Shown here piece by piece: positions 22,002 to 24,484 of a stretch of DNA of 64,000 nucleotides. Under the pieces are notes generated by a model. The model had not been told where the DNA came from and searched no databases. It saw only the letters and a list, made by a program, of their open reading frames with translations. A program made the position numbers and the translations under genes. Where the stretch lies: the NCBI GenBank assembly GCA_937980645.1, contig CALJPQ010000005.1, positions 1 to 64,000 on the forward strand, given 5' to 3'. This DNA comes from an uncultured Saprospiraceae bacterium (lineage in GTDB: Bacteria; Bacteroidota; Bacteroidia; Chitinophagales; Saprospiraceae). Every line of letters begins with the position of its first letter. Within the stretch, counting starts at the first letter, position 1.

Positions 22002-23375
22002 CTAAGGCGCAACCCGCAACCCTATCTGCAGTGCCCAGGCATGCAACCGTTCGGCATTAGGGCCGATGCCGGGCGTCAGCCCGCGCCGATACAGAGGCTG
22101 CACGTACCAGCCGTAGCGGCCTCCAGGAGCACCGTATTCCCAGCGGATGCCTACATCGGCAGAGGCGTAGGCATTAGAGGCAAGACCACCTCTTTCCAGT
22201 AGCCCTTGCCCGCGTTCCAGCAGGTGCGGCTGAGCATTCGGATCGGCTTGCGTCAGCGGGAGCTGCCCTGGCGGATAGTAGCGGTAATCATAATCATAGG
22301 CCTTATCAAGCGCCAGATGCGCTGTGAGACCGCCGGCTACCCAGACCTGCCAACGGTCAGCGCTCCAGATGCGGCGCGATACGGCAAGTGGCAGCAGGAG
22401 CATATCGGCGCGTACCTGAGCCATCGAGGCGGCGTAGTATCCGCTCTGTGGCGTTCCCTGAAAGATGCGCTCCCGGTACTGAGGCGCAAAAGCCAGACTG
22501 GCATATTCCAGGCCTGTACCCCACGCCCAGGCGCGTTTGCGGTATTCAGCCCGGAGGGAAAAGCCATGGCCGTAGGCGGCGCGTCGAGCATCGGGCAACA
22601 CGAGGTGGTTGCGCTGCACAGCGACCGCTGCCAAAAGATAAAACCGCCGCTCAGAGGCCGGCGCAGGGCGGTTTTCGGAAGGAGCAAGCGCTATTCCAGT
22701 AGACGGAGACGCAGCAGAAGACAGCGGCACCGATATGGGCACCGACAACGGCGACAGGAAGGCCGGGCGCAACGAGGGTTGCTCTGCCCAAGCACCTGCA
22801 TCGGCGGCGAGGAACGATACGTCCGGGTATTCGTCGGCATTTTGTGGCCCTGGCTCATGGCCGTGCGCCGGGTGCGTTGCCGTCGTCCTCGTCGCCTCTG
22901 TCTCAGAGGCACTGGCGGAGGTCGAGAATGCCAGAGATGATGCCGAAGAAGGCTCAGCGGGTGCGCGTCTTGTAGCCCTGATGTCTTCAGCATTTTGAGC
23001 AACTGCTTGCGAGGAGGGCGGAACGTGAGGCTGCGCTGGAGGATGCCCCTGCTCAAAGTCCCAGAGCCACACCAAAAGCACCAACAGGAGCATTTCTAGC
23101 GCCTTTGCTCCATACACATACCGCTGTCGGCGGGTTTGCAAGCGCATTTTGGCGAGCAAAGCCTGCCAGCTGGCCGCTTCGTAAGGGGCAGAGAGGCGCT
23201 CCAGGCGTTCTCGAATGCCAGCGTCCCAGGTTGCATCATCTGCTGCCGCTGGCGGCACCTCGCCCGTTTGGGCATCTAAGCGGCGTTGGAGTTGCGCCCA
23301 CGTCGTCGGATCGTACGGAGGTTCAAGGTTTTCCAACACCTCTTTCAGTCGGCGGTCGAACGGTTGCTCAGTCAT
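22002..23375 (-). CDS. Putative dual-membrane anti-sigma protein: anti-sigma-like head, one TM helix, linker, barrel-like C-terminus
   Basis: A 457-residue protein overlapping the upstream sigma-factor gene by 4 bases (ATGA). Residues 1-85 look cytoplasmic, with two related segments, LEPPYDPTTWAQLQRRL (18-34) and LSAPYEAASWQALLAKM (61-77). One hydrophobic helix spans about 88-105 (KALEMLLLVLLVWLW). Residues 106-242 are Ala/Ser/Pro/Thr-rich and probably disordered. Residues 243-457 alternate like outer-membrane beta strands and end in LQIGLRVAP. Position and build suggest it restrains the ECF sigma factor while sensing the outer membrane. This matches the layout of the dual membrane-spanning anti-sigma (Dma) proteins described in Bacteroides. 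The function is inferred from architecture and context only. Confidence 0.65.
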   Translation of the reverse strand: MTEQPFDRRLKEVLENLEPPYDPTTWAQLQRRLDAQTGEVPPAAADDATWDAGIRERLERLSAPYEAASWQALLAKMRLQTRRQRYVYGAKALEMLLLVLLVWLWDFEQGHPPAQPHVPPSSQAVAQNAEDIRATRRAPAEPSSASSLAFSTSASASETEATRTTATHPAHGHEPGPQNADEYPDVSFLAADAGAWAEQPSLRPAFLSPLSVPISVPLSSAASPSTGIALAPSENRPAPASERRFYLLAAVAVQRNHLVLPDARRAAYGHGFSLRAEYRKRAWAWGTGLEYASLAFAPQYRERIFQGTPQSGYYAASMAQVRADMLLLPLAVSRRIWSADRWQVWVAGGLTAHLALDKAYDYDYRYYPPGQLPLTQADPNAQPHLLERGQGLLERGGLASNAYASADVGIRWEYGAPGGRYGWYVQPLYRRGLTPGIGPNAERLHAWALQIGLRVAP

Positions 23376-23971
23376 GATGCTTCAGATATGTTCTGGTCAG
23401 CAGCGGCCTCGTCGCGTGTAGTACTTGGGTGCCCGCTGAGGTACTCTTGTAGTTTGCAACGCGCTTTCAGAAGGTTACTGCGCGAAGTACTTTCCGTAAT
23501 TTGCAGCACTTCAGCGATTTCTTTGTGTGAGTAGCCTTCAACGACGTAAAGGTTAAACACTGCTCGGTACACGGGCGACAGGCGCTGCACGGCGTCCAGG
23601 ATTTCCCGCTCACTCAGGCGGCTGAGGGCGTCGGGGTCACCTGCAGAGAAGGTCTGGGCTTCTTCCAGGTCCTCCGTGCGGCGACGTGCATTGCGTCGAT
23701 GATGGTCAATGCAGGTATTGACTACGATTGTGCGCATCCAGCCACTCAGTGAGGTATCGGGCTGATAACGGTGGACATTCTGAAAAATCTTGATAAAGCT
23801 TTCATGCAGCAGGTCTAAGGCTTCATCGCGCGAGCTGGCATAGCGCAGGCAAATGCCCATCATCTTGCCGTAGTGTTGCTCATAAAGCGCCTGCTGTGCC
23901 CATCGCTCTTGCCGAGCGAGGGCCGCCAGAAAATCGCTTTCGGAAAAATCCAAAGCCCAGGCGATGTTCAT
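23372..23971 (-). CDS. ECF-type RNA polymerase sigma factor
   Basis: Sigma-70 family factor of the extracytoplasmic type. From the ATG at 23971 (MNIAWALDFSESDF) it has 199 residues; an upstream in-frame ATG at 24064 would add 31 basic residues that do not fit the family. Region 2 includes LRYASSRDEALDLLHESFIKIF and TSLSGWMRTIVVNTCIDHHRR. Region 4 includes LSPVYRAVFNLYVVEGYSHKEIAEVL and ITESTSRSNLLKARCKL. Its stop overlaps the start of the putative anti-sigma/barrel protein, so the two form one unit. Its target promoters cannot be read from this window. Confidence 0.93.
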   Translation of the reverse strand: MNIAWALDFSESDFLAALARQERWAQQALYEQHYGKMMGICLRYASSRDEALDLLHESFIKIFQNVHRYQPDTSLSGWMRTIVVNTCIDHHRRNARRRTEDLEEAQTFSAGDPDALSRLSEREILDAVQRLSPVYRAVFNLYVVEGYSHKEIAEVLQITESTSRSNLLKARCKLQEYLSGHPSTTRDEAAADQNISEAS

Positions 23972-24088
23972 GGAATGAGCATATCTGCGTACAAGACCGC
24001 AAAAGAAACGAACACACTTGCGCATACGCTGCCTGGGAAGGCTAAAAACGTTTGCGCTTCGCACCGATGGTAACCCTCCTCAAACGCC

Positions 24089-24127
24089 AAAAGCAGGCGT
24101 CAACCCTGAAGAAGGGCTGATGCCTGC
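24089..24127 (-). terminator. Terminator of the isc operon
   Basis: A 15-bp stem (24093-24107 with 24113-24127) has one mismatch, one wobble pair and a 5-base loop. It is followed on the minus strand by TTTT. It lies 31 bases beyond the iscA stop. Confidence 0.75.
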
Positions 24128-24157
24128 GTGGTTTCTACACTGCGAAAGCGCCGGCGC

Positions 24158-24484
24158 TCAGACGGCGAAGCTTTCCCCACAGCCACAGGTGCGTGTAGCA
24201 TTGGGATTATTGAAATGAAAGCCTTTGCCATTGAGGCCACCGGAGAACTCCAGCGTCGTGTTGAAGAGGTAAAGGAAGCTCTTCAAATCAGTAACCACTT
24301 TAACGCCGTTATCTTCAAAGACCTGATCGTTAGGCTTGAGCTCATTGTCGAAGTCGAGCTTGTACGACAGGCCCGAGCACCCGCCCGATACGACGCTCAC
24401 GCGCAGGAAGTAGTCATCTCCCACGCCATTCGCTGCGCGTATTTCGGCAATTTTTGCTTTGGCGCTATCGGCTACGTAAATCAT
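24158..24484 (-). CDS. iscA: A-type iron-sulfur carrier protein
   Basis: HesB/IscA-family protein of 108 residues that carries Fe-S clusters from the IscU scaffold to target proteins. The three ligand cysteines are Cys36 in VVSGGCSGLSY and Cys100/Cys102 in TCGCGESF. It follows iscU by 2 bases and is the last gene of the operon, with a clear terminator after it. ErpA- or SufA-type naming is possible, but the isc context favours IscA. Confidence 0.93.
   Translation of the reverse strand: MIYVADSAKAKIAEIRAANGVGDDYFLRVSVVSGGCSGLSYKLDFDNELKPNDQVFEDNGVKVVTDLKSFLYLFNTTLEFSGGLNGKGFHFNNPNATRTCGCGESFAV

Follow-up and report, generated by a model that had tools for sequence, protein, structure and literature searches.

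A predicted Dma-type sigma and anti-sigma factor pair with a doubled anti-sigma module and a conserved promoter in an uncultured Saprospiraceae bacterium

The closest described systems to the locus examined here are the Dma1/Das1 and Dma2/Das2 pairs of Bacteroides thetaiotaomicron, which share its domain order and in which the sigma gene likewise adjoins the anti-sigma gene. Dma2 consists of an anti-sigma domain, a transmembrane helix, a disordered tether and a C-terminal barrel, and is encoded next to an extracytoplasmic function (ECF) sigma factor of type ECF21 (PMC13088901). According to the discussion of that article, what Dma proteins sense is still unknown. In Phocaeicola vulgatus, the pair M0N98_03760-61 likewise comprises a sigma factor and an anti-sigma factor that spans the periplasm and ends in an outer-membrane barrel, all by prediction. 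Its inducer is BcpT, an antibacterial protein that probably acts via envelope stress and under which the sigma gene goes up 33-fold, and cells without the anti-sigma factor carry more O-antigen repeats and a longer O-antigen (PMC9308784). The same article calls EcfO of Bacteroides fragilis and its anti-sigma factor a similar pair; EcfO, which answers oxidative stress as cited, is also cited in PMC13088901 and PMC12596196. Here, a two-gene locus of this kind is described from positions 1 to 64,000 of contig CALJPQ010000005.1 (the window, meaning the whole 64,000-nucleotide stretch analysed) of an uncultured Saprospiraceae bacterium. The likeness to the Phocaeicola pair, which comes from another lineage, and to EcfO is by description. 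The two genes probably (roughly 70%) act as a Dma/Das-type switch that senses the envelope, regulates its own production and adjusts surface glycan length.

The N-terminal region of the 457-residue anti-sigma protein contains a duplicated anti-sigma module. The best ungapped pair of 30-residue segments within residues 1-85 scores 53, a value reached by none of 1000 shuffles (mean 6.6, maximum 34), and profile comparison relates module 1 to module 2 at 98.5% (E 3e-15). Against the N-termini of a Bacteroides finegoldii Dma2 orthologue and three Bacteroidales relatives, each with a single module, module 1 aligns at 89.8% (E 1.8e-6) and module 2 with the transmembrane helix at 96.6% (E 5.8e-10). 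An earlier sequence-only reading of the window had noted related segments at 18-34 and 61-77. The first stands and the second copy lies one residue further on, at 62-78; that reading did not identify the segments as duplicated anti-sigma modules and mentioned neither a promoter nor predicted targets. With the module profile, 24 of the 25 homologues from the genus (alignment A1) have two copies and the remaining one has three (L024; L and G numbers denote our loci and genomes). Elsewhere in the family, the profile gives two or three copies for L065, L066, L068 and L069 and one for L067. Reading by eye gives L065-L067 more modules than the profile finds, and as many as five outside the genus but within the family; any count higher than three comes from this reading, the profile giving 2 and 3 for the longest two proteins. 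A single module is found in each of seven named Bacteroidota proteins, from Parabacteroides, two Bacteroides, Phocaeicola, Fibrella, Emticicia and Bernardetia. Within the same genome, seven of eight paralogues scanned have a single module (that of L112 at only 3.3 bits) and L126 has none; the profile also finds no module in L070. Most of the scanned proteins helped to build the profile, so it is the copies beyond the first that carry information; as a measure of noise, 1020 shuffled N-termini gave 12 domains above 3 bits. No report of tandem or duplicated anti-sigma domains was found among the matches listed from open-licence PMC texts, judged partly by title, and within that literature the doubled module is new.

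An AlphaFold2 model of the protein (25 sequences, mean predicted local distance difference test (pLDDT) score 68.7) places helices at residues 5-16, 23-36, 47-60 and 67-110. Residues 87-105 are the sole segment with a 19-residue hydropathy mean above 1.3, which retains the single transmembrane helix of the sequence-only reading and shifts its start from residue 88. The low-complexity linker described there is predicted to be disordered and is 138 rather than 137 residues long; residues 111-240 contain 21% Ala, 15% Pro and 15% Ser. Among the 25 homologues, the length of this tether is 137.1 +/- 7.0 (range 122-153) and its pairwise identity is 0.14, compared with 0.39 for the barrel and 0.47 and 0.40 for the modules. 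A tether of such length could plausibly reach across the periplasm. The barrel-like C-terminus proposed earlier for residues 243-457 is modelled as an eight-stranded barrel near OmpA, NspA and OmpW (Z 16-19) and not as a soluble fold. Its eight long strands lie in residues 244-455, with ten-residue pLDDT means of 80-97 except for two (66 and 77). In VIA-align, the barrel superposes on a deep-learning-aided OmpA model (Z 18.6, 166 residues aligned, 2.4 Å), a Legionella porin (Z 18.1, 183, 4.8 Å), NspA (Z 18.0, 155, 3.3 Å) and OmpW (Z 17.3, 167, 3.0 Å). The Pfam family OMP_b-brl_2 (PF13568) is matched at E<=1 by 20 of the 25 genus homologues (best 2.2e-6), and on the model the C-terminal fold of the window protein is a barrel although the protein does not reach the PF13568 gathering cut-off. 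A second model, of a same-family protein (8 sequences), has a mean pLDDT of 50.9 and a poor N-terminus.

Profile comparison also links the barrel to Bacteroidales: the four proteins of the comparison set (A4) align with A1 over this region at 98% (E 2e-13). The B. finegoldii member is encoded at L132, where a sigma gene is followed by the barrel protein, DUF4943, DUF4858 and a nitronate monooxygenase; this order matches that of das2-dma2 in PMC13088901, and the protein is therefore taken as a Dma2 orthologue. The match to the Dma layout of Bacteroides that the sequence-only reading had pointed out is thus borne out in the arrangement, which equals that of Dma2, and in the homology of the barrel and both modules by profile. 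One difference lies in the two modules of the window protein compared with one in Dma.

The window sigma factor matches Pfam region 2 (E 4.9e-17) and region 4 (E 8.1e-16); against TIGR02985 (RNA polymerase sigma-70 factor, Sig70_bacteroi1), it scores 90.2 bits, below the curated cut-off of 126.4. On an unrooted sigma tree (47 rows; L128, L129, L104 and L105 left out), it falls in a group of 35 (support 98/98) that includes the sigma factor associated with the Dma2 orthologue. This group holds all 28 rows labelled as having a barrel and 7 others, with 12 rows from the same genome outside it, many of them long-branched. The barrel labels of L107, L117 and L120 from the same genome were given by eye, as these have no Pfam barrel match; the Pfam matches of L109 and L126 are below cut-off and that of L138 is weak.

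The pairing of the two genes is conserved. Of 31 loci, 30 have a sigma homologue upstream of the anti-sigma homologue and only the contig-end fragment L028 does not; in L025 the sigma gene is incomplete, and L031 is a duplicate of L002. Anti-sigma homologues were found at E<=0.01 in 35 of 60 genomes, namely the source genome, 33 of 36 others of the genus and one weak match in the same order; SKYG121, a Saprospiraceae metagenome-assembled genome, is the one named relative seen. Across the phylum, the A1 profile matched in 17 of 296 genomes (E<=0.001), so the genus profile reaches few distant relatives. In the window, the sigma and anti-sigma ORFs (open reading frames) overlap by the four bases ATGA at 23372-23375, in agreement with the 457-residue product and overlap of the sequence-only reading (Table 1). 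The sigma start at 23971 was chosen over a GTG at 24064 because the conserved promoter sits between the two. Upstream, the hairpin and T-run at 24089-24127 probably mark the transcript end of an iscA-like gene; the downstream neighbour is a folD-type gene oriented toward the pair. Because of this hairpin and the facing folD-type gene, the pair is probably its own two-gene operon.

Table 1 Features of the sigma/anti-sigma locus in the window.
Feature	Position	Strand	Basis or remark
ECF sigma factor gene, 199 aa	23372..23971	minus	Pfam Sigma70_r2 and Sigma70_r4_2
Dma-type anti-sigma factor gene, 457 aa, predicted to span both membranes	22002..23375	minus	fold model, homology
Anti-sigma module 1, residues 6-35	23271..23360	minus	W26 invariant in 25/25
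Anti-sigma module 2, residues 50-79	23139..23228	minus	W70 invariant in 25/25
Predicted inner-membrane helix, residues 87-105	23061..23117	minus	hydropathy; within model helix 67-110
Predicted disordered tether, residues 106-243 (138 residues)	22647..23060	minus	pLDDT <50 at 119-237
8-stranded barrel, predicted outer-membrane, residues 244-456	22008..22646	minus	model, fold matches, Pfam matches of homologues
Predicted ECF promoter, AGGCAGCG-N16-CGTTT	24006..24034	minus	34 nt before the sigma ATG
Hairpin followed by TTTT, probable terminator	24089..24127	minus	between iscA-like gene and promoter; stretch 24075-24160 folds at z -3.11

A conserved candidate promoter precedes the sigma gene. Exact GCAGCG-N16-CGTT occurs upstream of it in 24 of 28 regions, where mononucleotide shuffles give 0.003 expected per set, and GCAGC(G/A)-N16-CGTT occurs in 27; the 28 regions are the 31 loci without L025 (cut off), L028 (no sigma gene) and L031 (duplicate). 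The sole match to GCAGCG-N16-CGTTY in the window is the site before the sigma gene (0.18 expected). A CGT -10 box was judged to be of ECF type in F. psychrophilum (PMC9723704). A weight matrix was built from 22 sites, six repeats or near-duplicates being excluded and L024 not fitting, and gives the window site, itself part of the training set, 28.5 bits. Before 26 other sigma genes of the same genome, scanned over the 470 nt ahead of region 2, or over the complete locus where this was shorter (three cases), rather than from mapped starts, no comparable site is present, the best scoring 7.7 bits. A second pair within the genus (L138) scores 5.2 bits before its sigma gene. All five loci from other genera of the family score 11.8-21.1 bits, with the L067 site 285 nt upstream, whereas the sigma genes of the seven named Bacteroidota pairs (Bacteroidales, Cytophagales) do not; the site is thus taken as a feature of the family and not of all Dma pairs. 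The conserved promoter and its recurrence before a wzz/O-antigen-ligase operon and an M28 peptidase gene, described below, are new within the open-licence PMC literature searched, and the excerpts of PMC12596196, PMC12632263, PMC8103513 and PMC8999054 hold nothing on tandem modules or a GCAGCG-N16-CGTT promoter.

The same promoter recurs before other genes, as examined by pattern scans and by sets of orthologues (300 nt upstream). Across 41 genomes of the genus, the strict pattern gave 23 matches compared with 8 for a backward control; the sites precede the sigma gene (13), a wzz-like gene (2), an M28 peptidase gene (2), a UDP-sugar dehydrogenase gene (1), a riboflavin-kinase gene (1) or no gene (4). 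A second pattern gave 61 matches compared with 6 for the control. Of these, 60 were examined, the omitted one being the sigma site of G008; they lie before the sigma gene (15), an M28 peptidase gene (13), a riboflavin-kinase gene (4), wzz (3), a gene read by eye as encoding a small lipoprotein (2), a pair of related loci (2) and single genes (12), with nine before no gene. In orthologue sets, 23 of 30 wzz regions exceed the 99% shuffle level (0.3 expected) and 14 contain exact sites (0.05 expected); 16 of 22 M28 regions exceed that level (0.22 expected). Four of eight further wzz loci have a site, the short fragment G029 being excluded; taken together, 27 of the 38 wzz regions score at least 8.7 bits and 23 at least 12, compared with about 0.67 and 0.19 expected from real background DNA. 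Because the genomes are related, these orthologue counts are not independent, and the test had itself been prompted by two of the wzz cases (of 38) and one of the M28 cases (of 22). One of 23 M28 loci and one of 29 prsW loci were dropped for short upstream sequence or Ns, and seven M28 fragments or weak matches were left out. A wzz gene was found in 39 and an M28 gene in 29 of the 41 genomes. The wzz protein of the source genome scores 27.3 against the Pfam Wzz cut-off of 25.5, and the next gene encodes an O-antigen ligase (Wzy_C, 69.4 bits); the gene adjoins an O-antigen-ligase-like gene in 29 of 30 loci. The G022 wzz-like protein, which served as the orthologue query, falls below Pfam cut-offs. 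The wzz sites of G019 and G002 score 19.1 and 12.1 bits. Two of the three genus genomes without a Dma match also lack a wzz site (6.2 and -1.1 bits). The position of this promoter before the wzz/O-antigen-ligase operon and the M28 gene suggests control of surface-glycan length. The predicted wzz/ligase target differs from what is described for Dma, and no link to NigD was seen; it is comparable with the longer O-antigen of the Phocaeicola anti-sigma mutant (PMC9308784).

In the proposed mechanism, the two tandem helix-pair modules would hold the ECF sigma factor in the cytoplasm, while one helix would cross the inner membrane, the tether of about 138 residues would traverse the periplasm and the barrel would sit in the outer membrane. 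The grip on the sigma factor may loosen when the barrel detects a disturbance or the tether comes under strain; to judge from other anti-sigma factors, the protein would most likely be cut close to the inner membrane, which would release the sigma factor. The freed sigma factor would then transcribe its own operon from GCAGC(G/A)-N16-CGTT, giving positive feedback together with fresh inhibitor, and would also drive the wzz/O-antigen-ligase operon and, in relatives that have one, the M28 peptidase gene, so that surface glycan length is adjusted. Autoregulation of this kind is in line with the strong increase of das2 in a B. thetaiotaomicron dma2 mutant (PMC13088901).

Several observations weigh against this reading. 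Each module is predicted as a helix pair at low confidence (pLDDT about 50-77). The window protein matches no Pfam family, OMP_b-brl_2 included up to E 10, and it ends in Val-Ala-Pro, which sets it apart from most homologues in the genus. For the seven named Bacteroidota pairs, the best promoter scores ahead of the sigma gene are -3.5 to 9.8 bits. Among the candidate targets, 11 of the 38 wzz regions fall below threshold, the site before wzz in the source genome is moderate (12.7 bits), the G011 wzz region has no site (-6.3 bits), and the source genome has no M28 orthologue at E<=1e-10. In addition, for P. vulgatus a glycosyltransferase gene, not wzz, is suggested to account for the longer O-antigen (PMC9308784). 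Finally, G015, a genome 77% complete and without a Dma match, keeps a strong wzz site (19.9 bits). This persistence would fit a promoter that is read by another ECF sigma factor, with the sigma/anti-sigma operon as merely one of its targets, and ECF regulons can overlap (PMC9723704). Such an arrangement appears improbable, given that the other 26 sigma genes of the source genome have no comparable site in the stretches scanned and that the dma-linked operon carries the site throughout the genus and in every locus from the other family genera.

Two further alternatives concern the anti-sigma protein itself. Both modules may form one composite clamp on a single sigma factor, for example on regions 2 and 4, which would leave the stoichiometry unchanged. 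The modules are indeed conserved differently, the first like FD..LK..LENLE.PYDP and the second like VDK....LE.LE.PYQPAHW, and the class II anti-sigma factor CnrY places one helix per sigma region (PMC7406223). The CnrY-type domain is a two-helix module (PMC7406223), to which each window module is likened by description alone; the window modules differ in standing in tandem. A composite clamp is harder to reconcile with the single module that the profile finds in each of the seven named Bacteroidota proteins and with the alignment of both window modules to the single Bacteroidales module. Moreover, the Bacteroides and Phocaeicola pairs act genetically as sigma and anti-sigma factors (PMC13088901, PMC9308784), so one module seems enough, and a composite clamp is judged less likely than not. 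The barrel, for its part, may be a purely passive anchor; the signal would then be picked up by another component, such as a protease or chaperone in the periplasm that works on the tether or the transmembrane region. A tether kept in length while nearly random in sequence among homologues fits a spacer that depends on reach. However, the conservation of the barrel is near that of the modules (majority fraction 0.53 compared with 0.57-0.62), and the invariant G391, E394 and G396 in a predicted loop suggest a specific role; a purely passive barrel is rather unlikely. For the Dma/Das-like switch, because one module seems sufficient in Bacteroides, the extra modules suggest more sigma per sensor. 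A bolder form of the proposal, which we consider doubtful, is that one outer-membrane-anchored sensor holds at least two sigma molecules via its tandem modules, that a single outer-membrane event sets free a burst of sigma factor, and that this burst, through the dedicated promoter, resets surface-polysaccharide length, as in Phocaeicola despite a different promoter.

This distant lineage offers a natural series of module numbers for the study of stoichiometry, and its tether, conserved in length and not in sequence, poses the question of spacer or strain gauge. A third handle is the dedicated promoter, whose candidate output is the chain length of surface glycans. Most interesting of all, the promoter predictions accord with the P. 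vulgatus phenotype, for which the responsible gene is a suggestion (PMC9308784); this accord hints at a possible shared role.

Other candidate targets were set aside. The source genome has seven strict-pattern matches (one in the backward control), comprising the sigma promoter, a prsW site and five others not taken as targets. The prsW match lies 74 nt upstream of the gene, but none of 28 orthologues elsewhere passes (0.28 expected), and by eye a hairpin with a T-run separates site and gene; prsW was rejected. The UDP-sugar dehydrogenase gene has one exact site and 3 of 28 orthologues above threshold (0.28 expected) and is not claimed, nor is the riboflavin-kinase/family-2 glycosyltransferase fusion, whose four sites in four genomes perhaps represent one inherited site. 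The nine second-pattern sites without a downstream gene, several of them inside long ORFs, were treated as chance. The riboflavin kinase/FAD synthetase-glycosyltransferase fusions (L322:716-2599, L327, L329 and L338; Pfam on L322 only) lie 191-284 nt behind the promoter pattern. The secreted M28 peptidase loci are L150 and L230-L252, the promoter being common to the 16 of 22 genus orthologues noted above.

Related loci were seen alongside. In the source genome, L107, L109, L117, L120, L124 and L126 contain sigma genes, each followed by a Dma-like protein whose N-terminal portion includes a hydrophobic segment and whose C-terminal portion is long. Pfam barrel matches among these six occur only in L109, L124 and L126, above cut-off only in L124, and L120 is cut by the contig end. 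A protein of the same class at L073:2197-3507 has one anti-sigma module and a transmembrane helix, followed by a PKD domain and a weak CHU_C match (a type IX secretion signal), with no barrel. At L112:895-2913 and L137:346-2445, an ECF sigma factor is accompanied by a protein that has a transmembrane helix, a large extracytoplasmic part and, at its N-terminus, a segment weakly resembling an anti-sigma module; the L112 protein reaches no Pfam family cut-off. In the further sigma/Dma-like pair of the genus, at L138:1350-2615 in G005, TSEP-type repeats follow one another within the tether. The B. finegoldii records of L131 and L132 (NZ_OY725958.1 and NZ_OY725915.1) are labelled plasmids and look like chromosome pieces; L132 carries nadC, queC, queF and rlmH.

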